Below, in pieces: positions 8,208-21,404 of a stretch of 21,404 nt of DNA. Source of the DNA: a virus. The stretch covers positions 1 to 21,404 of IMG/VR virus record IMGVR_UViG_3300045911_000010; one strand, 5' to 3'. Both the position numbers and the translations under genes were made by a program. The notes below the pieces were generated by a model. That model ran no database searches and was not told the DNA's origin. It saw only the letters and a program-made list of their open reading frames with translations. Position 1 is the stretch's first letter, and each line of letters opens with the position of its first letter.

Positions 8208-8459
8208 GTGACAAACGAACGTTTTACGGCCTATGTTATGGGAACTAATTCTTCTCTTAAGGTTACGCGACAGAGCATTGGCGGTTTCTTGGCAAAGACA
8301 GGAGGCACCGTCACTGTTACCAATGATAATGGTGTAGTGATTGTGGATGCACATCCTGTTACTGCTGGGCTTTATTATCCTATGCCGTTTCTTTTTCAAA
8401 CGGCTACTGGTGGTACAGTTACACTTGCTGGTGGAGCCAGCGGAGTTCTAGCGGTCTAA
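8208..8459 (+). CDS. Small decoration-like head protein
   Basis: 83 residues with a GTG start at 8208, supported by GGAG 9 nt upstream. The sequence is rich in Thr, Val and Gly and looks all-beta, with no transmembrane segment or signal peptide. It sits directly after the coat gene and its terminator, where phages usually encode head decoration or cement proteins. I do not recognise the family, so that role is inference from position and composition. Its stop overlaps the next gene's ATG by one base (TAATG), coupling it to the spike gene. With the terminator ahead of it, it should be expressed below coat. Confidence 0.7.
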   Translation: MTNERFTAYVMGTNSSLKVTRQSIGGFLAKTGGTVTVTNDNGVVIVDAHPVTAGLYYPMPFLFQTATGGTVTLAGGASGVLAV

Positions 8460-10654
8460 TGGGACGTCTTTCTACCCGGGTTATTGCATGGATGGGGCAC
8501 GGGGGAGCGCCGCCACCGACGCCCTTCCTTTCTTCTGTCGAGACGCACGGGTTTCTTGCTGAGGCGACCAATACACCGACCAATACTGTTATTGACGAGT
8601 TCGTCCCCGTTTTGCGGACTGGCTATCTTGGCACCACCAGCCTGACCACGTGGACCGAGCAGGTGCTGGTTCACCGGCGCGCTCCGACGCCCGGTTCAGC
8701 GCCTCGCACCTATTCCGGCAACCGTGTGGTCCTTAATTCCGTCATCCTTTCCGACGATGTAATTTCCAGCACGGTAAATAATAGCACCCGGACAGCACCG
8801 GCGCTTGAAGGGTTTTTCACCTGCCCCTTGAACCGGGTGATTGGCAATTCGGTCACTCTTACATCGGTGTGGGAGTGCGCGATGACACGCAACGGGGTCC
8901 CTGTCACTCTGGTGCGCTACACGATCTCTTCTCTTGATGGGTCGCAGGTCGTGACGGCGGATGTGACAGCGCCTGTCGCGCGGTCGCACAGCCTGACTGG
9001 CCTTTCGTCGCACTCGTGGGAGGCAACGCTCGACACGTCCGCTATTCCGGACGGCCACCGGGTCAAATACCGGATGCAGGGCTACGGCCCCTATGGGCAG
9101 GTCTTCGACAGCGACAACTGGACCTCGCAGGCCGATATCCTGATCGGGCGTGGTTCGAGGCGCGGGCTGAAACACAACGGGATCGCTACCAATCCCGTCA
9201 AGGTGGTCCTTCGCGATACGGCCTCGGGATCGCCAACTGCGTCGACCGACTATGCCACCGCTTACGCTGGCCATTACGCACGCACTACGGCAGGTATCAA
9301 CGCGGCGCGCACTGCCGCACAGGCGCTCAATCTTTCCACCTACGGGATTAACGGGCTGGACGGTGTGGAGTTCTACATTGGTGGCACAGTCATAAACACG
9401 ACATTTCATCCGACCAGCCTGACTGTTCTTTACACCGGGATTATCATCCGATCTGACCCGACAGATTTTCCGGGCGGCGCTGACTTTTTCACAAACTTCC
9501 AGCCGAACTGGACTGGACATCTGGAAAGCGCGCCGCACGATATTTACGGCCTCACCTTCCGCGATTTTGCAAAGACAAGGCGGCGGTCGCCGTCCGGCAA
9601 CACTACTGTAGACTTCATCAGCGGGAGCGGAATTACCGACCTATGGATCGAGGGCGGCGAACACGATTGCCTTACCCCTGCGTCTGGTAATGCTTTTCTG
9701 GTGGACGGCGGGGGCGTTGCAACTTTCCTGAATGTGACAATCACGAACAACACCGGAGGCGCAGGAAACTATACGGGCGTCATTACTGGCGGGAACGTCA
9801 GGTATTTGCGGGTTATCGGTTCGCGCTTTGCAGAGGTCTCGTCTGGCATTCAGGAAGTCGCTTCGCCGCTAAAAATAGGTTCGGTCTTTGAGCGCACCCG
9901 GTTCCGGCTGATCGACATTTCTAATTCCTGGGCAGTGAATAGCCACATTGCAGATGGCTGCTGCCTGTTTAATCACAATCCTACCGCTAACGGCATTATG
10001 TTGAACGCGCCATCACTTGCCCAAAAGGATAATACGCGCGGCTGGTATTGGAGAAACTGTCTTTTCGAGAATGTTTCGAATACCAATAACGACCGCGTGG
10101 CATTTCTGGCTGACGCCAACACAGACAGCTGTTCCTGCGTTGTTTTCCGCAACTGCACCATGGTTGGCTATGACCTTGCGGGCCGCTGGAACGCCTGTTA
10201 CAATCAAAGCACCGCTTCGCCGGTTTCAATGTTCCAATACACATTTTTCGATGCCTGCATCATGCCGCGATCTGCCAGCAAAGGCGACATGGACGGCACC
10301 CCGAACGGGGCGCGCTATGTTGGCTGGGCCGAGCAGGGGACAATGGTGCTTGGGCGCGGGAACTGGTCGCAATGGCCGCCATTGGCGAATGACCGGCGAG
10401 ACAGCTGGGGGCCGGGTTCGGTGTCTCCGACTAACACGGGAGTGTGGAACAACCCAGGTTTTGTCGATTACCGTGGCTCTGATGGCGTAAACCTCGGCGC
10501 TGGCTATGGTGACTACAATCTGACTGCTTCCGCTCCCGCTCGTGGCGGTGTTTCCTACATTCCGGCCTGCCGGTTTGACGCCGAGGGCAACGCGTTGCCG
10601 ATTGGCACGGTGCACACAACGCCCGGCCATCTGGCTGCTAAGCCCGCGCCGTAA
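8459..10654 (+). CDS. Beta-helix tailspike or surface-glycan-binding protein
   Basis: 731 residues. Residues ~140-225 look like an Ig/fibronectin-like module. Residues ~355-600 are Asn/Gly/Val-rich with repeated strand-turn units (for example DLWIEGGEHDCL, FLNVTITNN, VVFRNCTMVG), typical of right-handed parallel beta-helices. The C-terminus has a GDYNLTASAPA segment and a DAEGNALP segment like the closing part of polysaccharide-lyase-type helices. It probably binds or cleaves surface glycan as a spike; no catalytic residues can be named. Base composition is clearly more GC-rich than the neighbours (spot count 40 of 60 at 9001-9060, against 26 of 60 at 12901-12960), a sign of recent transfer. 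Its place before the gp4-like gene is unusual for a tailspike. Confidence 0.75.
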   Translation: MGRLSTRVIAWMGHGGAPPPTPFLSSVETHGFLAEATNTPTNTVIDEFVPVLRTGYLGTTSLTTWTEQVLVHRRAPTPGSAPRTYSGNRVVLNSVILSDDVISSTVNNSTRTAPALEGFFTCPLNRVIGNSVTLTSVWECAMTRNGVPVTLVRYTISSLDGSQVVTADVTAPVARSHSLTGLSSHSWEATLDTSAIPDGHRVKYRMQGYGPYGQVFDSDNWTSQADILIGRGSRRGLKHNGIATNPVKVVLRDTASGSPTASTDYATAYAGHYARTTAGINAARTAAQALNLSTYGINGLDGVEFYIGGTVINTTFHPTSLTVLYTGIIIRSDPTDFPGGADFFTNFQPNWTGHLESAPHDIYGLTFRDFAKTRRRSPSGNTTVDFISGSGITDLWIEGGEHDCLTPASGNAFLVDGGGVATFLNVTITNNTGGAGNYTGVITGGNVRYLRVIGSRFAEVSSGIQEVASPLKIGSVFERTRFRLIDISNSWAVNSHIADGCCLFNHNPTANGIMLNAPSLAQKDNTRGWYWRNCLFENVSNTNNDRVAFLADANTDSCSCVVFRNCTMVGYDLAGRWNACYNQSTASPVSMFQYTFFDACIMPRSASKGDMDGTPNGARYVGWAEQGTMVLGRGNWSQWPPLANDRRDSWGPGSVSPTNTGVWNNPGFVDYRGSDGVNLGAGYGDYNLTASAPARGGVSYIPACRFDAEGNALPIGTVHTTPGHLAAKPAP

Positions 10655-10672: not shown

Positions 10673-11455
10673 ATGACCTTGGTATCAGACATCCTTACAG
10701 ATGCTTACCGCCAGAGCAACCTTTTGGCCATTGGGGGTACCCTTACAACCAACCAACAAACAGAAGCATTGCGTCATCTAAATCGTATTGTAAAATCGGT
10801 TCTTGGTAATGAAGTTGGAGAACCTTTTACACCTGTTCCTTTGGGTCGTTTGAATATTGAGCGTCCTTCTGGATGGCCTTGGTACGAAAATTTTCCAGAG
10901 CCTGATTGGTTTGTCCCCGAAAACTCTCGCCTAATGTGCAATCTTACGGGAAGCGGGGAAGTATTTCTTCACCCAACTCCTGATGATGGGTCTCGGCTTT
11001 CTGTAATTGATGTAGGACAAAACCTATCGACTTTTCCTCTTACGCTTAATGCTAACGGGCGTAGAATTGAGGGACAGCCTTCTGTTGTGCTTAATAACGA
11101 TGGGTACAATGCTGAATGGTTGTATCGGGCCGATCTCGGAGAATGGAGACTTGTTTCTCCTCTTACTCTTCCCGCAGATTTTCCTTTTCCAGAAGAGTTT
11201 GATTTTTATTTTATTACGCTGTTGGCCATGGCGCTTAATCCAGCCTACGGCGTAACTATGGACCCGCAAACTCAGCTTATGATGGTTAGGTCTCGTTCAC
11301 AAATTCGCTCTCGTTATCATAACAATATACCGACTCGGTCTGAGCTAGGGCTTATTCGTTCTCCTCTTACCTCCCAAGACAGGTGGTATACTGGTACAGA
11401 CTTTGGCTGGGACTATAGCCCAGACGGGGCGTTTAAAGCAGGAATTCCGTTTTAA
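10673..11455 (+). CDS. gp4-like tail accessory factor / head-completion protein
   Basis: 260 residues. The start (LVSDILTDAYRQSNLLAIGG, then a TTNQQTEALRHLNRIV helix) is typical of P22 gp4-like proteins that bind beneath the portal as a ring and begin tail assembly. The rest alternates beta and helical segments, with a YHNNIPTRSELG stretch near residues 218-229. AAGGA lies 9 nt before the ATG. P22 gp4 also has peptidoglycan-hydrolase activity; I see no motif that lets me claim this here. It is AT-richer than the upstream spike gene and matches the rest of the operon. Its stop overlaps the next start by one base. Confidence 0.85.
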   Translation: MTLVSDILTDAYRQSNLLAIGGTLTTNQQTEALRHLNRIVKSVLGNEVGEPFTPVPLGRLNIERPSGWPWYENFPEPDWFVPENSRLMCNLTGSGEVFLHPTPDDGSRLSVIDVGQNLSTFPLTLNANGRRIEGQPSVVLNNDGYNAEWLYRADLGEWRLVSPLTLPADFPFPEEFDFYFITLLAMALNPAYGVTMDPQTQLMMVRSRSQIRSRYHNNIPTRSELGLIRSPLTSQDRWYTGTDFGWDYSPDGAFKAGIPF

Positions 11456-12711
11456 TGCGTTTGCCCTTTGTCACTAGCGATTATTCAAGAAGGGTTTCGG
11501 GAGCCCCTGACCTTCTTCTTCGCAATAGATATTTTGAAACTAACCCTACTCTCACTGAAGACGGGGCCTCTCTCCTTCCTCGTCCCGGCCTAAAGTATTT
11601 TACAACTGTAGGACAAGGCCCTATTCGAGGGATTAAATCTGAAAGCGGGTCATTTAATGGAGACCTGTTTGTAGCTTCTGGTACAGAAGTTTACAGAGTT
11701 TCTGCTGATGGCTCTTCTCGTATGATTTACACGGGACTTGGAAACGCATCAGAAGGGTTTGTTACGTTCGCTATTACTGCTAATATTGAAAATGTTCCTC
11801 CTTATTGTTTTATTGCAGACGGTTCCTCGTTTCTTGTTTACATTGAAAATGGGTATGCCACTAATACTCTTAGCGGGACTATTGCTAACAATGACGTAGT
11901 CAGAATTGGAGCAACTTATTATCAATTTACCAACGGATCGGTAGATGCTGGAACCCCTAATGGAAGCGTGTCTAACCCTTGGTTGGTTGCTCTTGGCGTA
12001 AACAATATGATGGCATTTTCAATTTTTGCTAGTGCTGTCAACGGGACCGGTGTTGCAGGCGTAGATTATTCTACAAATTTGCAGGTTAACGGAGAAGCTG
12101 CGGCAATTAATCTGTTCACTGAATCTGTTCAAGTAAGAGCAACAACTCCCGGCGTCTCAGGAAACTCTATTGTTACGACTACTACGGGCTCAAACCTTAC
12201 TTGGGCAAATGGCGGAACCCTTACTGGCGGAGGGGAAGAATCGGTTCTTCCTGTCGGCTTGCCTATTGCAACAGGCGTGATCAGTTGTGCAGTTATTAAT
12301 TCTTTTGTAGTAGTTGTTCCTGAACAAAGCGGCTCCCTTAACGGAAGATTTTATTGGATTGAACCGGGAGAGCTTTTTGTTAATGCGCTTAATTTTGCAA
12401 CAGCGGAATCAGCTCCTGACGGCCTTAACGGTGTTGTAGTTTTTAAGGACCAGTTCTGGCTTTCTGGAGAGAGCACTACTGAAGTTTGGTATTTTACCGG
12501 AGACCTTAATGTTCCTGTCCGCCGAGTGCAAGGCGTACTGTTTGACAGAGGGACTCTACAAAATATGGCTGTTCCTTTTGAAGAAGGAATTGTTTTAACA
12601 GACTCTCTTGGCGGAGTTTTTCTTGTTTCTGGAGGAGAACCAAGAAGAATTTCTACCCCAGCAATCGAAGAGCAACTCCGTCGGGCTCTTATTGAGCAAA
12701 GAAGGTTCTAA
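11455..12711 (+). CDS. N-terminal part of a gp10-like tail hub / DNA-stabilisation protein
   Basis: 418 residues resembling the first two thirds of P22 gp10-like hub proteins. It shows a start binding the tail ring (LPRPGLKYFT, residues 41-50), beta-propeller-type repeats with FIADGSSFLVYI, then GELFVNALNFA, TTEVWYFTGD (341-350) and RRISTPAIEEQLR (397-409). In the family this last segment is followed by a strand such as DGHxxxVL and a further ~190 residues. Here the gene stops at residue 418, and that missing part appears at the end of the next gene. Residues ~135-262 look like an inserted beta domain. The stop overlaps the next ATG by one base. Read with its partner it would plug the portal and anchor tail appendages. 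Confidence 0.8.
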   Translation: MRLPFVTSDYSRRVSGAPDLLLRNRYFETNPTLTEDGASLLPRPGLKYFTTVGQGPIRGIKSESGSFNGDLFVASGTEVYRVSADGSSRMIYTGLGNASEGFVTFAITANIENVPPYCFIADGSSFLVYIENGYATNTLSGTIANNDVVRIGATYYQFTNGSVDAGTPNGSVSNPWLVALGVNNMMAFSIFASAVNGTGVAGVDYSTNLQVNGEAAAINLFTESVQVRATTPGVSGNSIVTTTTGSNLTWANGGTLTGGGEESVLPVGLPIATGVISCAVINSFVVVVPEQSGSLNGRFYWIEPGELFVNALNFATAESAPDGLNGVVVFKDQFWLSGESTTEVWYFTGDLNVPVRRVQGVLFDRGTLQNMAVPFEEGIVLTDSLGGVFLVSGGEPRRISTPAIEEQLRRALIEQRRF

Positions 12712-15047
12712 TGGCGTCTGGTTTTTTCTTAGCTGACAAGGACACAGAAGCTTTTCAAGCTGTAGTGCCTCGTTTTGACCCTAAATTTTGGACCGTAAAT
12801 TTTCCAAGGCCAATGATGGCCTCTGTCCGCACGCTTTCAGCAAACAGCTTTAGGGCTGATTGTAATTGGATTGAAGAAGGAAATCTCTGTGGTTTGATTT
12901 GGAGCAGCGAAGACACTCTAGACCACCCCCTCAATTCCTATGAAACCAATAAAGATTATTCAGGGGTTACTTTGACCTTTAGGTGGCAAAGCACTGGAGT
13001 AGAGCCCTTGGATTCAAGCAACCCTCCTGTGCTTACTATTGAAGGCAGAACGCAAGATGGTGTTCCTAAGTCTTGGTTTGTTCGTCTGTGGAACTATAAA
13101 ACCTCTGGAACTGGTACAGATTGCATTATTTCCCTTCCTTTTAGTGCGTTAGACGGAGGATTTATTCTTCCTAATGATGCAGACCCTGTTTTTCCGGGCA
13201 ATATTGACAGAATGTTTATTTCTCTTATTCCTCCGGGATTTGTAGAAAATAGCACTACTTTGTTTCCATTGCCAAAAGACGGACATGTAATTATTTCAGA
13301 TATTGAAGTTACTGGTGGACCTAATGCAAGCCTAGCAGTCAAAAACGCCTTGAGGCCCCCGCACGAGTTTTACATGTGCACGGCTTTTGACGACAGCTAC
13401 AATCTAACCCCCGAGCGTGTTTTGTATAATATTCAACAACTGGGGTATCGTAAAACAATTAATCATTATGTTGGCATGAGCCATTATATGCAATTGCGTT
13501 TTGACATTGGGGACAACGCTCTAAGGCTATACAATGTGGCCGGTCAAAGGCTAAATGCGCCTACTCGTTTTTGGCACTCGGATTTTTTCGAGCGAGCTAA
13601 AGACTTGGGCTTTGAAGTTATTGTGTCTTTGTCTTATGAAATGTTCAACTCTTATTGCCCTACTAGCTGGAGGCAGCTCGATTCAAACGGAGGCCCGGCT
13701 CTTACGGGATGGGTTCCTCCTTCCACTATTCTAATTCCTACCCTGCCTGCTGCTATGAACTATCTGCAAGGAGTTGCCATAGAGTTTATGGATGAAGCTG
13801 ATGCTGTCGGAGCTCCTCTTCTTTTTCAGATTGGGGAACCTTGGTGGTGGGTGAATTTTACAGACCAAAGACCGTGTTTCTATGACGCTTACACTACAGC
13901 GCTATATTTTACTGAAACAGGCCTAACTGCCCCAGTTATTACAGACATGAAAGCAACCTTGAATAGCGCTCAACTAGCCTATCTAGACTGGCTGGGAACT
14001 AAGCTGGGGATTTCTACAAACAACCTTAGAGATGCAGTTAAAACTGCTTACCCCTCTACTAAAACTCTATTGCTTTTTTATGCTCCTCAAGTCCAAAGCG
14101 ATTTGACGCCTGAGCTTTACAGGGCTAATCGTCCAGCCGCTTGGAACTATCCTGCCTATGATATTCTACAGCTTGAAGATTATACTTTTGTTAGTCAAGG
14201 AAATGTTCCTGCGTCAGAGTTGGCTGCTGAAACAGTTACAACTCTTCTGGGATATCCTGTAGACAAGCAACACTATTTTTCGGGGTTTGTTCTGTTGCCT
14301 CAAGACGCCCCTACGCTCTGGCCTTTGATCAATAATGCTGCTAATAGGGCCGTGGCCAGAGGCGTCTCTCAAGTGTTTTTCTGGGCACAGCCTCAAATTA
14401 ATCGAGACGGTTTTACCGTTCTTGGTTCTACAGAATTGTCTTCTAGGGCGTGGGGAATAGAACTAGACGGGCACCAACTGCTGGTTCTTAGAGCTGGTGC
14501 AGATAAAACCTTTGTCTACGATTTGCAAACAGGGCAATGGTCTTCGTGGGATAGCCCATTTAGCTCGGTGTGGCGTCCTCTTTACGGCATCAACTGGATT
14601 AACTCGGGAGAAGCTGCTTTCAACGCAGGAACAAACATTGTATGCGGGGACTCTTCTACGGGAGTTCTGTGGATGTTGGACCCCGAACAGCCTTACGATG
14701 ACTCTCCAATTACAGAAGTAGAAGAAGCACAGCCATTTACTAGAACTGCTACTGCTCAGGTTCCTGTTCGAGGAAGAGAATTCATCCCAGTATATGATTT
14801 GTTTTTGACTGCCTCTAAGACCAATAATCTACAAGTTAGTCCTAATGTTGGCTTGTATTATTCTGACGACGGGGCCGATACTTTCGTTCACGCGGGAGAC
14901 ATTGCTTCAGATAATTCGTTTACACAAGAGTTTGCGTGGAGATCGCTAGGGCGTATTCAAGCGCCGGGAAGAATTTTCCACATTGTAGACGAAGGGGCAT
15001 TGTCCAAGATTGATACTCTAGATATTAATACAATTACGGAATCTTAA
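12711..15047 (+). CDS. TIM-barrel virion protein fused to the gp10-like C-terminal part
   Basis: 778 residues in two parts. Residues 1-~570 match the GTA TIM-barrel / non-contractile tail sheath family of alphaproteobacterial phages: RFDPKFWTVNFPRPMM (21-36), AFDDSYNLTPERVL (225-238), NHYVGMSHY (251-259), SLSYE (306-310), GEPWWW (375-380), LQLEDY (486-491) and HYFSGF (521-526). The glycoside-hydrolase-like barrel has conserved acidic residues E310, E376 and E489 that could be catalytic, which is inference. Residues ~578-778 instead resemble the C-terminal part of P22 gp10-like hubs: DGHQLLVL, VYDLQTGQWSSW, CGDSSTGVLWMLDP, YYSDDGADTF and RSLGRI. The gene therefore looks like a TIM-barrel protein placed inside a hub gene. 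It may act at the baseplate on the cell surface. Confidence 0.8.
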   Translation: MASGFFLADKDTEAFQAVVPRFDPKFWTVNFPRPMMASVRTLSANSFRADCNWIEEGNLCGLIWSSEDTLDHPLNSYETNKDYSGVTLTFRWQSTGVEPLDSSNPPVLTIEGRTQDGVPKSWFVRLWNYKTSGTGTDCIISLPFSALDGGFILPNDADPVFPGNIDRMFISLIPPGFVENSTTLFPLPKDGHVIISDIEVTGGPNASLAVKNALRPPHEFYMCTAFDDSYNLTPERVLYNIQQLGYRKTINHYVGMSHYMQLRFDIGDNALRLYNVAGQRLNAPTRFWHSDFFERAKDLGFEVIVSLSYEMFNSYCPTSWRQLDSNGGPALTGWVPPSTILIPTLPAAMNYLQGVAIEFMDEADAVGAPLLFQIGEPWWWVNFTDQRPCFYDAYTTALYFTETGLTAPVITDMKATLNSAQLAYLDWLGTKLGISTNNLRDAVKTAYPSTKTLLLFYAPQVQSDLTPELYRANRPAAWNYPAYDILQLEDYTFVSQGNVPASELAAETVTTLLGYPVDKQHYFSGFVLLPQDAPTLWPLINNAANRAVARGVSQVFFWAQPQINRDGFTVLGSTELSSRAWGIELDGHQLLVLRAGADKTFVYDLQTGQWSSWDSPFSSVWRPLYGINWINSGEAAFNAGTNIVCGDSSTGVLWMLDPEQPYDDSPITEVEEAQPFTRTATAQVPVRGREFIPVYDLFLTASKTNNLQVSPNVGLYYSDDGADTFVHAGDIASDNSFTQEFAWRSLGRIQAPGRIFHIVDEGALSKIDTLDINTITES

Positions 15048-15050
15048 ACA

Positions 15051-15689
15051 ATGTCTAAAGCTCCTCAGCCTTTGTCTGCTAATTTTCCTATTGTAGGAGA
15101 AGACTTCAAACCAACTCCCTATTTTATTAGGTGGGCTCAAGAAAGACAAATTGACATTCAGAATAGCGCTTCACCAGGAGAAATTGACGACGCAATTAAT
15201 AATTGGTCTAGTGCTCGTTCTATTAACACTCCCGGAGGAGGGGGCCTTACAGGCGGAGGAAACCTAAGCTCAGATTTGACTTTGGGGATTGCTAACACAT
15301 CTGTTACTCCAGGCTCTTATTCGTGCCCAAATATTACAGTTAATTCCCAAGGACGGATTACTTCTGCAACTACTGTAGACCCTACCGGGTCCCTTCAAAT
15401 TCCTACTCTTTCGTTAGGGTGGATTGGTTACGGAAGTGGCTACGTATCTCCTAGGTACAGGAAAGACAGGCATGGTCGCGTAACTGTAGAGGGTTTGATG
15501 CAATCTGGGACTGATGGAGTAGTATTTACTTTTCTTCCGGGCTTTAGACCAGACGGCACTCTTATGTTTATCTGTTGGTCTGGGGGAGGGCCGTACAGAG
15601 TTGACGTAAGAGCAACCGGAGAACTAGAAGTCTTTGGTTCAAATGCTGTGTTTTCCTCTCTTACTGGCATTAGTTTCTTTGCTGTTTAA
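15051..15689 (+). CDS. Short tail-fibre-like protein
   Basis: 212 residues. The N-terminus (TPYFIRWAQERQIDI, residues 22-36) is a common head-binding start of phage appendage proteins. Residues ~63-105 contain a Gly-rich fibre motif (GGGNLSSDLTLGI, then ITVNSQGRITSAT). The C-terminal ~95 residues, with YRKDRHGRVTVEGL, LPGFRPDG and LTGISFF, resemble compact receptor-binding tip domains of phage fibres. It should be a trimeric fibre that contacts host receptor. It occupies the slot where P22 has the tail needle gp26, but it shows no long needle coiled coil. It starts 3 nt after the previous stop. Confidence 0.7.
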   Translation: MSKAPQPLSANFPIVGEDFKPTPYFIRWAQERQIDIQNSASPGEIDDAINNWSSARSINTPGGGGLTGGGNLSSDLTLGIANTSVTPGSYSCPNITVNSQGRITSATTVDPTGSLQIPTLSLGWIGYGSGYVSPRYRKDRHGRVTVEGLMQSGTDGVVFTFLPGFRPDGTLMFICWSGGGPYRVDVRATGELEVFGSNAVFSSLTGISFFAV

Positions 15690-16771: not shown

Positions 16772-17770
16772 ATGGATATTTTGAATTTTCTGGCTTCTGC
16801 GTTGATGCAACAAGGGGCGTTTAATCCGCGAGGGGCGAGCCCTGATGTTGAGGAAGAAATTGTTGTTCAAGGGGCTCGCGCTCCTTTTGAGCTTGACCCC
16901 GATCCTACGTTTGTAAGGAGGGGAGAACCTTACCGTGAATTCGGACCTCGTCAAGGGGGCAAAGGGATGTTCGGAATTAAGGGAACCATGAGGGACGTTC
17001 TCGGTCTTCTTGGAGACTCCCTGTTGGTAGGTAACGACGTTTCTCCGGTGTATGCTCCTCGACGGCAGCAAGAAAATATTTCAGAAGCTCTTGAAGTATA
17101 CCGAAAAGACCCGGCTCTTGGGCAACAGCTTTTGGACCGAGTTGCTCCTGAGATGAGTCAAAAGATGGCTGAAAATGCCCGCCGTGAAAGCCTAGATCAA
17201 CAACGTATTAATCAACAACTTCGGGCTACCGAAAGTCTTGAACGAGAACGGCGGCTTAAGTCTTTTGGTACGATTGCTCAATACGCTAACGCTGCCCGAG
17301 ATGAAAGTAGTTATCAGCGAATGAAGCCCATTCTCCAAGAATATATTAATGATAACGGCCTTAATTTTCCTCTTCCTGATAAATATGATCCTAATATTAT
17401 TCAAGACCTATTGAAAGCTGCTATTGGTCCTGTGCAAGAACAGTCTTTAGATATTCGTGCTCAAAACGCACAAACTGCTGCCGCTCGTACTGCCGGTAAT
17501 CTTGCGCTTGGGCAAGGACGTCTTGGTGTTGCTAAGCAACAAGCAGACATAGCGCAACAAAGAACAGACATCTATAGAGATGACGTAAGGTCTCGAATCA
17601 ATACTAGAGAGAATCCGCCAAACCAAAGAAAACGCATGACTGGTCAAGGAGCTGCTCCTCCTAGCCGAATACCCCCAGGTGCAGTTGACCTTGGTGGTGG
17701 TGTGTTCAGGCTTGCTGATGGCACTTTTGCAAATGCGCAAGGCGTGCCCCTGCGCCCAAAGGTTAAATAA
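16772..17770 (+). CDS. Internal virion (ejection) protein, gp20-like position
   Basis: 332 residues, mostly helical and Gln/Arg-rich. A hydrophobic N-terminal helix (DILNFLASALMQQG) is followed by an acidic/basic linker. Residues ~70-115 (FGIKGTMRDVLGLLGDSLLVGNDVSPVYAPRR) form a block I recognise from internal virion proteins of podoviruses. A long Gln/Ala-rich coiled-coil region (~130-280) follows, then a C-terminal ADGTFANAQGVPL module. It lies between the gp7-like and gp16-like positions, as P22 gp20 does. It should be packaged in the head and ejected with DNA to help cross the cell envelope. It starts 2 nt after the previous stop. Confidence 0.72.
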   Translation: MDILNFLASALMQQGAFNPRGASPDVEEEIVVQGARAPFELDPDPTFVRRGEPYREFGPRQGGKGMFGIKGTMRDVLGLLGDSLLVGNDVSPVYAPRRQQENISEALEVYRKDPALGQQLLDRVAPEMSQKMAENARRESLDQQRINQQLRATESLERERRLKSFGTIAQYANAARDESSYQRMKPILQEYINDNGLNFPLPDKYDPNIIQDLLKAAIGPVQEQSLDIRAQNAQTAAARTAGNLALGQGRLGVAKQQADIAQQRTDIYRDDVRSRINTRENPPNQRKRMTGQGAAPPSRIPPGAVDLGGGVFRLADGTFANAQGVPLRPKVK

Positions 17771-17771
17771 T

Positions 17772-20700
17772 ATGGCAAATAATAAGGTTTTTGTTGACAA
17801 TCAAGGGATTGAATACGAGGCGGTAGAAGATTCTGCCCCGCTGCGTGTTACAATTAGACCTCTTGCAATGCCGCCTAATAATACGGAAACTAAGGGCACT
17901 ACAAAAGCAGGAATTCTTGTTGATAGTCAGGGCATTGAATATGAACCTATTGATTTTGCCCCTCCAGTACGACTTCCTGATGCTCCTGATGATGCCTCCG
18001 GCGACGCTCCTGATGCCCCGGGCTTTCTTGGCACGATCAAAGACTACATTAATCTAGCAGACACGGGCGTCTATAACACGCTTAAGACTTTTACTGATGC
18101 TGTTGGAGGTGCTGGTAACGTTGCCTCTGAGTTTCTAGAAGAAAGAGCAAAATACGAAGAGGACTCTCTGTCTCCGTATCGTAGACAATTGATGCAACTG
18201 CAACAGCAACTGTTGAACCAAGCCGAAGGACAAGGCCTTGGTGCAGAAGTAGGGGCTGCTTGGAAAGCCTTTAAGACGGCCCCCGGCACTATGCTTGCTC
18301 AAGGGGTCGGTTCAGTACTTCCTTTTGTTGGAGCTACTATTGCTGGAGGAATTCCTGCTGCTGTTGCGGCTGGCGCTGTTTCTGGAGCGGGTGCTGTTAA
18401 AGGAACTATCTACGATGCAGTAAGAGAGACTAGCATTGCTGCTGGAGTTCCTGAAGAAAAAGCAGAACAACTTGCTCGTGAATCTCAGGCCTACTTTGGA
18501 GGTAACACTGACCAGATTGCTATTGGCGCTGGTATTGGTGCTCTTGCTTCAAGGCTTGGGGTTGAAAAAAGTGTGGCAGGGGCTATTGGGCGTACTGCGG
18601 CAAGTCGAGGCGTGACTAAAAGCGCCGCTAAAGGTTTTGTCGAAGAGGCTGCTACTGAAGCCGCTCAAGAAGGGCAAGAAAAGCTTGCTGGAAACATTGC
18701 CCTTAAAAGGGCTGGATACGATAATGACATCTTCAGGGGTACGGCTAGTGCAGCTACTCTCGGGGCCCTTACTGGAGGGCCTCTGGGGGGCACCCTAGGG
18801 GCCGTTGAAGGCCGAGTCGGTACTGTTACAGCCGGAGGCGATCAAGCGGCTGCACAAGCCCGAAAAAAGGTTGCTAGTACTATTGAGCTGGCAGGACCTG
18901 CTAATGGCAAATATTACACTGCTGAAGAAGCCGCTACTGAAATTAACAAGATTGTAGGAAGATGGACTAATCCTCCTGAAATTGAAGTTGTTGATACAGT
19001 AGACGATATTGCTGATCCAGACATCCGTGAAGAGGTCCAACAAGAGGCTGGTCCTACAGACGTTCTTGGTTTCTATGGCCGAGATGGAAAAGTTCGTATT
19101 ATTGCCGGCAACATTACTAATCCAGCCGACCTTAAGGGCGTTCTATTCCACGAAGCACTTGGACACTACGGTCTTGCCCAACAGTTTCGCAACGGGCTGA
19201 ATGCTCTTCTTCGCAGTATCTATCGTACTAGTCTGGAGATTCAGCAACTTGCTCGTGATTGGGTAAATCAACAAACTAGAGATTGGTCAACCGAAGAGCG
19301 GGAGGCGGCCCTTCGAGACCTTGACGCTAATCCTGAACTTGCTGTTGAAGAAGTTCTTGCTTCCCTTTCTGAGGGCGGTCCGGTTGTTGCAACCATGCTC
19401 GATAAAATTAAAAACTATATTAAGAGCATGGCCCGTAAGGCCGGGATGAAAAATGTTGATTATTCTGTTCGAGAAGTTCAAACCATTCTTGCTCAAGCTC
19501 ATGCAAGGGTAATTAGCGGGAAGGCTGCTGCTTCACCAAGCAGCTCTGGCGTTACCAGATTTTTGAACACGTGGCACGGTAGCCCTGTTGACGAATTTCG
19601 CAATGTAGACCACGACAACCCTTACGGCAAGTTTGATGACGCCTTTATTGGAACTGGAGAAGGCGCTCAAGCATTTAGCTGGGGCCATTACGTTGCTATG
19701 AGGCGTAGAACTGCTGAAGAAAAGTATCGTTTTGGTCTTCTTTCTTTAAAAGGAAAAGAGCCAAAAACAATTATAGGGCCAAACAACATTACACTAGAAG
19801 AGTGGGCAGAACAAAATGCTCCTAATTATTACTATCTTATTGTGAATACGGTTAATGACTTTGGAATTGGTAAAAAGGGAGTTATTGATGCTATTAATTA
19901 CCTAGAAACCCCTGAACATAGATCAAGAAAACAGGGAAAACCGCCTCGTTTAACACCCTACGACCAAGAAAAACGAGAAGCCGCTAATATCCTGAAACAA
20001 ATTCTTCCTCTTGTTGTTGATATGCCTCCTCCTAACCCTCTTACAGAGGAAGAAATTAAACTCGTTGCAAAGATGTTTAGGTACACTCCTGGAGAAGTTT
20101 CAAGAATGCGTATGCATGTTCTTCGCGAGGAGTTGTCTAAGCAGGCTGATTTTCATCAAATGAAGGCAAGAGACTTTAAAAAAGAAGCGGTTGATTACGA
20201 TAATCCTAGGCTCTTTAGGTGGGCAAAACAAGAAAAAAGGGAAGAACTTAAAATAAGAGCTTTGCTTAAAAAATATGAAAATGTAAAGCCCCCCGGTTCT
20301 ACCTTTGAAGTAGAAATTCCTGATCCTAAATACGATCCTGAAACTGGAAAGATTATTAACCCAGATGGGGCATTGTATCTTAACTGGGATGGTCCAGTAG
20401 CTCCTGAAGTTTTAGATGCGTTTAAGCGGCTAGGAATTAACCCTGCAAAAGTTTTTTTTCTGGGTCCCTCTCTTGCGGGGCAAGAGCTATATACCCATCT
20501 TGTTCAAAAAATGTATACGCCAATTAGTTACGAAAGATACTTACTGGAAGAAAGCTTTAGGGATACTTATAACAACCCCAGTAGATATTATAACGATAAG
20601 GGCGAGCTTGTAGACCCTGACGGTATCCCCGGACCTACACCTCCTGTCTCTCTCCTAAAAGAGTTGAAGAGACTTTCAAAACTGGCTTTTAAAGAAATAC

Positions 20701-21404
20701 CAAACGAGAACGCTCCTAGACTTGCGTCTAAGGCGCTATCCCGAGAAGGTGTAGTTGGAACTCAGTTTCGTGATGGGTTTAGTCGTAATAAAAACAAAAA
20801 TATTACATACAACTTCGTTATCTACGACCCCAAAGATATGAAGATTATTAACAAGTTCTCTAAGCGTAGTGCTAAGATGATTGGAGGAATTAATTTTGAG
20901 AAGCTTCGAGCATCTTCTAGTATCAAGAAAACTCTTAGGGAAGCTGCTGAGCAAATAGATACTAGTGGTCGTGGGACTACTCACAGAGAAATTGTGGACG
21001 CCGCTAGAGCGGCTGATCTTCTCCCGGAAGAGTTCTTAAAGCTGAAGCCGGGTATTGATGCAGTAGACATTACTGGTGGACGCATGATCTTGCTTGATCT
21101 TGCAGGCAAGGTAAACGAACTTTCTTGGGCCATCAGAAACAACGAAGCCACTACGGACCAAGAGCTTGAGTTCTTGGAACATGTTGTTATGCTAAACGAG
21201 GTTATGGCCCATTTGTCAAAGACTGCAAGCACTATTGGACGTACTCTGAATGCTCTTGGAATTACTCTTGGAAAGGCCCGTAGAGGAGGCTTTGACCTTA
21301 GATATGCTCTGAAAGACGTGAATTTGGGCGGGATTAGAACGCCCGAAGATATTAGGCGTCTGGCAGAGCTGATCGGAAAAACAGAAGGTAATCCTCAACA
21401 GATT
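17772..21404 (+). CDS. Giant polyvalent virion protein: metallopeptidase-like and ADP-ribosyltransferase-like domains (partial)
   Basis: An open frame of 1211 codons from ATG 17772 to the right edge, with no stop found, so the protein is longer. A short motif repeats at the N-terminus (VDNQGIEYE at 8-16, VDSQGIEYE at 50-58). Residues ~178-210 are Gly/Ala-rich and hydrophobic, followed by an amphipathic EEAATEAAQEG region; together these could insert in a membrane. HEALGHYG (H460, E461, H465) with a later VEEVLA (E526/E527) resembles the zincin metallopeptidases of large phage proteins. HGSP (602-605), GTGEGAQAF (627-635) with Y640, WDGP (872-875) and GTQFRDGFSR (996-1005) match the ART-PolyVal ADP-ribosyltransferase pattern. 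Residues ~1044 onward are helical. At the P22 gp16 position, it should enter the host with the DNA and may modify host proteins. Confidence 0.85.
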   Translation, partial: MANNKVFVDNQGIEYEAVEDSAPLRVTIRPLAMPPNNTETKGTTKAGILVDSQGIEYEPIDFAPPVRLPDAPDDASGDAPDAPGFLGTIKDYINLADTGVYNTLKTFTDAVGGAGNVASEFLEERAKYEEDSLSPYRRQLMQLQQQLLNQAEGQGLGAEVGAAWKAFKTAPGTMLAQGVGSVLPFVGATIAGGIPAAVAAGAVSGAGAVKGTIYDAVRETSIAAGVPEEKAEQLARESQAYFGGNTDQIAIGAGIGALASRLGVEKSVAGAIGRTAASRGVTKSAAKGFVEEAATEAAQEGQEKLAGNIALKRAGYDNDIFRGTASAATLGALTGGPLGGTLGAVEGRVGTVTAGGDQAAAQARKKVASTIELAGPANGKYYTAEEAATEINKIVGRWTNPPEIEVVDTVDDIADPDIREEVQQEAGPTDVLGFYGRDGKVRIIAGNITNPADLKGVLFHEALGHYGLAQQFRNGLNALLRSIYRTSLEIQQLARDWVNQQTRDWSTEEREAALRDLDANPELAVEEVLASLSEGGPVVATMLDKIKNYIKSMARKAGMKNVDYSVREVQTILAQAHARVISGKAAASPSSSGVTRFLNTWHGSPVDEFRNVDHDNPYGKFDDAFIGTGEGAQAFSWGHYVAMRRRTAEEKYRFGLLSLKGKEPKTIIGPNNITLEEWAEQNAPNYYYLIVNTVNDFGIGKKGVIDAINYLETPEHRSRKQGKPPRLTPYDQEKREAANILKQILPLVVDMPPPNPLTEEEIKLVAKMFRYTPGEVSRMRMHVLREELSKQADFHQMKARDFKKEAVDYDNPRLFRWAKQEKREELKIRALLKKYENVKPPGSTFEVEIPDPKYDPETGKIINPDGALYLNWDGPVAPEVLDAFKRLGINPAKVFFLGPSLAGQELYTHLVQKMYTPISYERYLLEESFRDTYNNPSRYYNDKGELVDPDGIPGPTPPVSLLKELKRLSKLAFKEIPNENAPRLASKALSREGVVGTQFRDGFSRNKNKNITYNFVIYDPKDMKIINKFSKRSAKMIGGINFEKLRASSSIKKTLREAAEQIDTSGRGTTHREIVDAARAADLLPEEFLKLKPGIDAVDITGGRMILLDLAGKVNELSWAIRNNEATTDQELEFLEHVVMLNEVMAHLSKTASTIGRTLNALGITLGKARRGGFDLRYALKDVNLGGIRTPEDIRRLAELIGKTEGNPQQI

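Follow-up and report, generated by a model that had tools for sequence, protein, structure and literature searches.

A P22 gp10-type tail hub encoded in two genes, with a probable slot for exchangeable surface-binding modules at the break

The window, i.e. the whole stretch of 21,404 nt analysed here, comes from an uncultivated virus of bacteria (record IMGVR_UViG_3300045911_000010) and encodes a tail hub of the P22 gp10 type in two consecutive genes. We consider it probable that this is a two-chain hub, and that the break between its chains is a slot for a surface-binding module, refilled in the window by a tail sheath unit of the N4 type that is fused to the second part of the hub. The first gene (hub-N, 418 aa) is found at 11455..12711 on the + strand and the second (the sheath-hubC fusion, 778 aa, a single open reading frame (ORF)) at 12711..15047 on the same strand, with a one-base overlap in TAATG. 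These ORFs and coordinates agree with an initial annotation made from the sequence alone, which also proposed that the two genes carry consecutive parts of one gp10 hub, and that about 1.7 kb encoding a barrel had been inserted into the hub and had thereby split it. The former proposal is borne out by the comparisons below, and the latter is not.

Both parts can be placed in the gp10 family. Hub-N matches positions 5-280 of the PHROG_578 profile (head closure Hc3, the P22 gp10 family; 1.2e-27), and residues 578-758 of the second protein match positions 289-452 of 486 (1.4e-14), so that coverage of the whole family profile is reached jointly by two chains. The same division is obtained when the half-families are aligned to intact hubs with hhalign, where, out of 464 columns, 29 first halves take up 2-272 (E 1.9e-58) and 27 second halves take up 273-462 (E 4.3e-32), adjacent and with neither overlap nor gap. 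Hub-N thus stops short of an end-to-end alignment with complete hubs, and the halves fall on consecutive parts of the family. Profile comparison thus confirms that hub-N corresponds to a P22 gp10-type tail hub over its first ~60% and that residues ~578-778 of the next protein (hub-C, 14442..15044, + strand, assigned by PHROG_578 and by hhalign of the family) are the remainder. The single polypeptide of gp10 hubs is replaced by two ORFs in the window and in 48 other distinct hubs. Neither hub half reaches Pfam PF11134, which is reached by the intact hub of DSL-LC05; the family profile of hub-C matches the hub structures of Pan3 and Pam1 at about 1e-14. Identity across the clade of split hubs is 31-56% for hub-N and 30-48% for hub-C, with invariant residues in both halves.

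The propeller-platform fold was modelled for an intact relative and for hub-N of the window, and hub-C was assigned to it by profile. The AlphaFold2 (AF2) model of the intact relative L110, with a mean predicted local distance difference test score (pLDDT) of 92.7, has 28 strands between residues 47 and 346, in our reading a propeller of seven blades with four strands each, and after them a beta-sandwich platform. Compared with known hubs, it gives Z scores of 38.3 for P22 gp10 (8eap_D), 35.6 for Sf6 gp8, 38.8 for Pam1 and 44.0 for Pan3. The break comes after helix 266-272 and before strand 279-285 of this model, which by strand count would place it between the fifth and the sixth blade, after the closing strand. 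Hub-N, as assigned by PHROG_578, hhalign and AF2, would accordingly comprise an N-terminal arm plus five propeller blades, and hub-C the last two blades plus the platform. The AF2 model of hub-N can be superposed on P22 gp10 from residue 52 to residue 288, where the match ends (Z 22.1). Its arm (residues 1-47, 11455..11595, + strand, recognised from pLDDT and comparison with T7 gp12) has a pLDDT of 34-48 when folded alone, against means of 72-97 per ten-residue block for the corresponding first 50 residues in the intact L110 model. In T7 gp12, the 45-residue N-terminus gives three strands to the C-terminal platform (PMC6702177). The models suggest that the arm of hub-N is probably ordered only together with hub-C; given that the hub-N model stops at gp10 residue 288 and that the arm is modelled without confidence when alone, hub-N should need hub-C both for closure of the propeller and for order of the arm.

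Hub-N also carries an inserted domain of ~125 residues (residues ~142-266, 11878..12252, + strand), identified by alignment to intact hubs and by AF2, with pLDDT near 90, no counterpart in intact hubs and no Pfam or PHROG match. It is absent from the split relatives L115, L120, L144 and L164 and is not part of the break. Domains of this type also occur in long lectin genes and, in L092, L143 and L177, in small ORFs 5' of the hub, and the hub-N of L202 (855 aa) probably has more than one copy.

The hub layout was examined in contigs with a related coat, hub-N or hub-C, and once near-copies had been removed, trees were built from 49 split hubs and 51 intact ones. The 49 split hubs are that of the window and 48 others, all distinct, from related podovirus contigs. 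They form one clade in the joint tree, the N-half tree and the C-half tree (support by the SH-like approximate likelihood ratio test (SH-aLRT) of 99, 100 and 99, respectively), and this clade is nested among intact hubs. The agreement of the N-half and C-half trees shows that the halves have been co-inherited, and the phylogenies support a single origin of the split, with the hub already in two genes in the ancestor of the clade and the cargo replaced later. We take the intact hub to be the ancestral state, because intact hubs fall outside the split clade and the hubs of P22, Sf6 and Pam1, which are known from structures, consist of one chain. In all three trees the nearest rows to the window are L105, L143 and L174, which have the same break, with a LamG-type gene filling the gap and hub-C encoded on its own; their hub-C is extended by ~80 residues, which to the eye appear repetitive.

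The coat protein was considered as a proxy for the history of the hub and rejected, as its tree does not group the split hubs; coat and hub have been exchanged independently. Split and intact hubs are mixed in the coat tree (L090-L254), unlike in the hub tree, which indicates that the hub module moves between phage backbones and capsid lineages. One split hub, accompanied by a lectin gene, is on a 47,210-base phage-like contig of a cultured strain, Sphingomonas segetis YJ09 (L254), and this contig may be a potential laboratory model of the split hub.

By far the most common content of the slot is a LamG-lectin gene (43 of the 49 split hubs), which is short in 29 and long in 14; LamG assignments are based on PF13385 matches in L103 (5e-13) and L132 (1.9e-8), to which the other genes are homologous. 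L090 has a tandem pair, L179 a different tandem pair (phrog_6368), and in the other four a module is fused to hub-C: L118 has a LamG module, L188 a glycine-rich domain (PF21722, 3e-21) as well as a LamG-type gene, L190 ~460 unclassified residues, and the window the sheath. Further fused modules were found in a hub-C-seeded scan, which used a pattern from the closer subset of the hub-C alignment: ~370-430 residues in L311, L323, L343 and L346, 268 residues in L301, ~395 in L320, and a discoidin-like module in L284 (PF00754, 5.5e-6, slightly below the curated cut-off). The cargos with a convincing Pfam match are of carbohydrate- or surface-binding types, or glycine-rich domains. Because of the lectin cargos and of the N4 relative of the window's module, we infer by analogy that slot modules bind the host surface. 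Tetraselmis viridis virus S20 has a relative of the slot lectin (L270:6001-7038) shortly 3' of its tape measure gene, in a tail of the siphovirus type, and this again suggests that modules have moved between the hub and the distal tail.

In the window, the slot is filled by ~570 residues ahead of hub-C, which consist of NCTSP_N (PF23844; residues 20-207, 12768..13331, + strand; E 1.4e-77, profile 2-187 of 191) and TIM-barrel_NCTSP (PF23845; residues 216-568, 13356..14414, + strand; E 1.8e-132, profile 1-348 of 348), both near full length. The TIM-barrel protein that the initial annotation saw joined to the C-terminal hub part is therefore real, although its description as cell-surface-enzyme-like is better replaced by one as a non-contractile sheath of the N4 gp64/gp65 type. 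The relatives of the barrel in the PDB are N4 gp64 (6e-64) and N4 gp65 (6.9e-20), and by homology the barrel is a unit of such a sheath. Its residues D227, D228, H258, E310, E376 (in GEPWWW) and E489 (in QLEDY) are invariant in 84 of 84 NCTSP sequences. In N4, gp64:gp65 heterodimers form a six-fold sheath around the tail; receptor binding is the task of gp65, for which an action on the plug has been proposed (PMC12633501). By analogy, the sheath unit of the window would form a tail sheath and bind the receptor.

Among the matches listed, the closest relatives of the sheath are NCTSP-DUF2460 genes (~50% identity), and in a rooted tree the window's sheath falls among their sequences. In each of the best 80 relatives, homology ends at residues 567-589 (mostly 569-578) and is followed by DUF2460, which is not in the window protein and has hub-C in its place, so that among these relatives hub-C does not occur as a natural C-terminus of TIM-barrel tail proteins. 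Two NCTSP-DUF2460 loci that were checked also have Rcc01698-like and PF09931/PF09356 tail genes, as in tail loci like those of gene transfer agents (GTAs), in keeping with the kinship to GTA-type tails proposed earlier. The fusion of sheath and DUF2460 in GTA-like alphaproteobacterial loci (L022, L017, L002 and others in L010-L089) parallels the sheath-hub fusion of the window. Viral-contig scans with protein 2 as query, with the sheath alignment (best 80 matches) and with the hub-C seed gave no second sheath-hubC fusion, and the search with protein 2 alone gave no matches.

At the junction of the two hub genes (12698..12713, + strand), the sequence AAAGAAGG at 12698-12705 is Shine-Dalgarno-like and lies five bases 5' of the second start, and in TAATG at 12709-12713 the hub-N stop and the sheath-hubC start have one base in common. 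The corresponding junction in relatives is variable, with TAA, TGA or TAG and with spacers or overlaps, and no common slippery site or motif was found at the junctions of the window and its relatives.

Four other explanations can be set against a two-chain hub with a refilled slot. If the barrel gene had been inserted into an intact gp10 hub in the window lineage, itself splitting the hub, the barrel would be located exactly between the two hub parts, as it is; however, the 48 other distinct hubs have the same break without the barrel and belong to the one clade that includes L105, L143 and L174. Since these nearest relatives share the break and lack the barrel, the barrel is a later replacement and not the cause of the split, and we consider such an insertion extremely unlikely. 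It is also very unlikely that the halves are remnants, with hub-N a decayed gp10 hub, a complete hub elsewhere and the hub-C fold only a docking domain of protein 2. The record of 21.4 kb may be a fragment, leaving room for other genes, but conservation extends over both halves throughout the split clade, invariant residues included, the two halves have the same phylogeny, and just one hub-N and one hub-C turned up in each split relative, several of them with more than 10 kb of sequence examined.

The one-base overlap and immediate adjacency of the genes could point to frameshifting, which would make hub-N, sheath and hub-C a single long chain in which the sheath is no more than an ordinary insert. 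This appears highly unlikely, given that the sheath gene is equipped with a start and a Shine-Dalgarno-like sequence of its own, that the variable junctions of relatives have no slippery motif in common, and that a whole separate lectin gene stands between the halves in most relatives. As for the possibility that assembly joined a podovirus contig to one from a GTA or prophage, the sheath cargo does occur in one contig only, and its nearest relatives are from another phage type. Against this, sheath and hub-C are in one uninterrupted ORF, the sheath is only ~50% identical to any database copy, its GC content is that of the local sequence (42-45%, compared with 70-73% in its relatives), and both flanks are syntenic with relatives; the local base composition together with the syntenic flanks argues against a recent or assembly chimera, to which we give hardly any credence.

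The two-chain hub with an exchangeable slot remains the reading we prefer, and the following points weigh against it. Two-chain assembly rests on single-chain models, and the hub-C family profile reaches solved hubs via the Pan3 and Pam1 homologues only, not P22 gp10 directly. A joint multiple sequence alignment of sheath rows, hub-C rows and protein 2 misplaced the first ~60 residues of hub-C with all MAFFT settings tried. The sheath-hubC fusion is known from one contig, and the branch of the window's sheath is long (1.1 changes per column), which makes the exact donor lineage unsure.

The hubs P22 gp10, Sf6 gp8, Pam1 and Pan3 (PHROG_578, Hc3) belong to the same family, with a seven-bladed propeller and platform and a gene directly 3' of the tail adaptor, but each is one polypeptide, whereas the window has two chains, with foreign modules encoded at an inter-blade break. 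A hub of this family is a hexamer joining the adaptor ring and the tail needle, as the two-chain hub would probably be. T7 gp12, SU10 gp17 and crAss001 gp44 have a like propeller-platform hub with extra tip domains (PMC6702177, PMC9509320, PMC10172136), which lie in blade 3 or beside it, within a single chain; the chain break of the window is elsewhere. The hub insertions of SU10 and crAss001 at that blade (PMC9509320, PMC10172136) correspond roughly to the hub-N insert 142-266 and not to the break. The N4 gp64:gp65 sheath has the same N-terminal and barrel domains (PF23844, PF23845) as the sheath of the window; however, gp65 and gp64 share the matches to the window barrel, and the N4 sheath is anchored in another way, while in the window a single chain has the barrel and then the second half of the hub. 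The NCTSP-DUF2460 proteins of GTA-like alphaproteobacterial tails differ from the window in their C-terminal partner, which is DUF2460 (distal tail) in the former and hub-C, in a P22-like podovirus, in the latter.

On this reading, hub-N and hub-C are translated separately and most likely come together again as one propeller-plus-platform subunit, in six copies per tail by analogy with known hubs. Hub-N would supply the arm and five blades, and hub-C the last two blades and the platform, which the arm would complete. A chain break between two blades would expose a new N-terminus on hub-C, and the clade appears to use this as a module slot, usually with a separate LamG-lectin gene and a short repeat extension on hub-C, and sometimes by direct fusion. 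In the window, the lectin cassette has been replaced by the N4-type sheath unit fused to hub-C, and reassembly of a hexameric hub would thus leave six sheath or receptor-binding barrels per tail covalently tethered to the plug; the physical fixing of the barrel to the plug, already suggested in the initial annotation, would follow from this. The modules would be displayed outwards and may signal to the plug. More speculatively, binding could shift hub-C relative to hub-N and so aid opening of the plug.

The surroundings of the hub genes are those of a P22-like phage. Upstream, Pfam profile matches identify a terminase together with portal and coat proteins, both of P22 type (7e-150 and 1e-24, respectively). 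A gp4-like tail adaptor (10673..11455, + strand) is directly 5' of hub-N and ends at the hub start; its homologues (45-53% identity) immediately precede hub-N in L105, L143, L174, L161 and L120, and the adaptor-hub order matches the gp4-gp10 order of DSL-LC05. Directly 3' of hub-C is a gene for a fibre-like protein (15051..15689, + strand), named from its position and weak tail-fibre PHROG matches, of which residues 6-107 are 47-55% identical to the same-position genes in L143, L174 and L105. The order adaptor, hub-N, slot, hub-C, fibre, 15690, 16092 is preserved in relatives. Between coat and adaptor, 8459-10654 encodes a protein of 731 aa with no significant family match, at a GC content (58%) and third-position GC content (GC3, 66%) clearly higher than in the rest of the window, and may be a spike-like gene of recent acquisition. 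At 17703-21404, an open frame that exceeds 1,230 codons and has no Pfam match runs past the window end and possibly encodes a large internal virion protein. Given the 21.4 kb size of the contig, the genome is probably represented only in part.

In agreement with the initial annotation, which knew of no such case, no earlier description of a two-chain gp10 hub was found in the literature searched, with subscription journals mostly outside it. Split hubs were not seen among GenBank phage and plasmid matches, where hub-N queries gave hub or stabilisation proteins, and the GenBank records inspected (DSL-LC05, Manatee Spring and a Caenibius plasmid) have intact hubs. Each part comes from a known family, and the novelty, in our view, is a hub of two chains whose fixed break carries an exchangeable module. 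We lean towards a wider proposal, that a large uncultivated clade of P22-like podoviruses makes its hub in two chains so that the break can act as an exchangeable docking slot, at which lectins, discoidin-like modules, glycine-rich adhesins, repeats and an N4-type sheath become receptor-binding parts wired to the DNA plug; the virion of the window would then have a P22-like hub in an N4/GTA-like sheath.

The propeller hub of the gp10/gp12 type is the gate that retains and releases the DNA of podoviruses, and its receptor-triggered opening is poorly understood. Recognition modules at a chain break inside this gate, in dozens of related phages and with varied cargos, provide a comparative series for receptor-to-plug signalling, and the split suggests that the hub propeller tolerates production as two chains. 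The exchange of one module links P22-like hubs, N4-like sheaths and GTA-like distal tails, which are usually treated separately.

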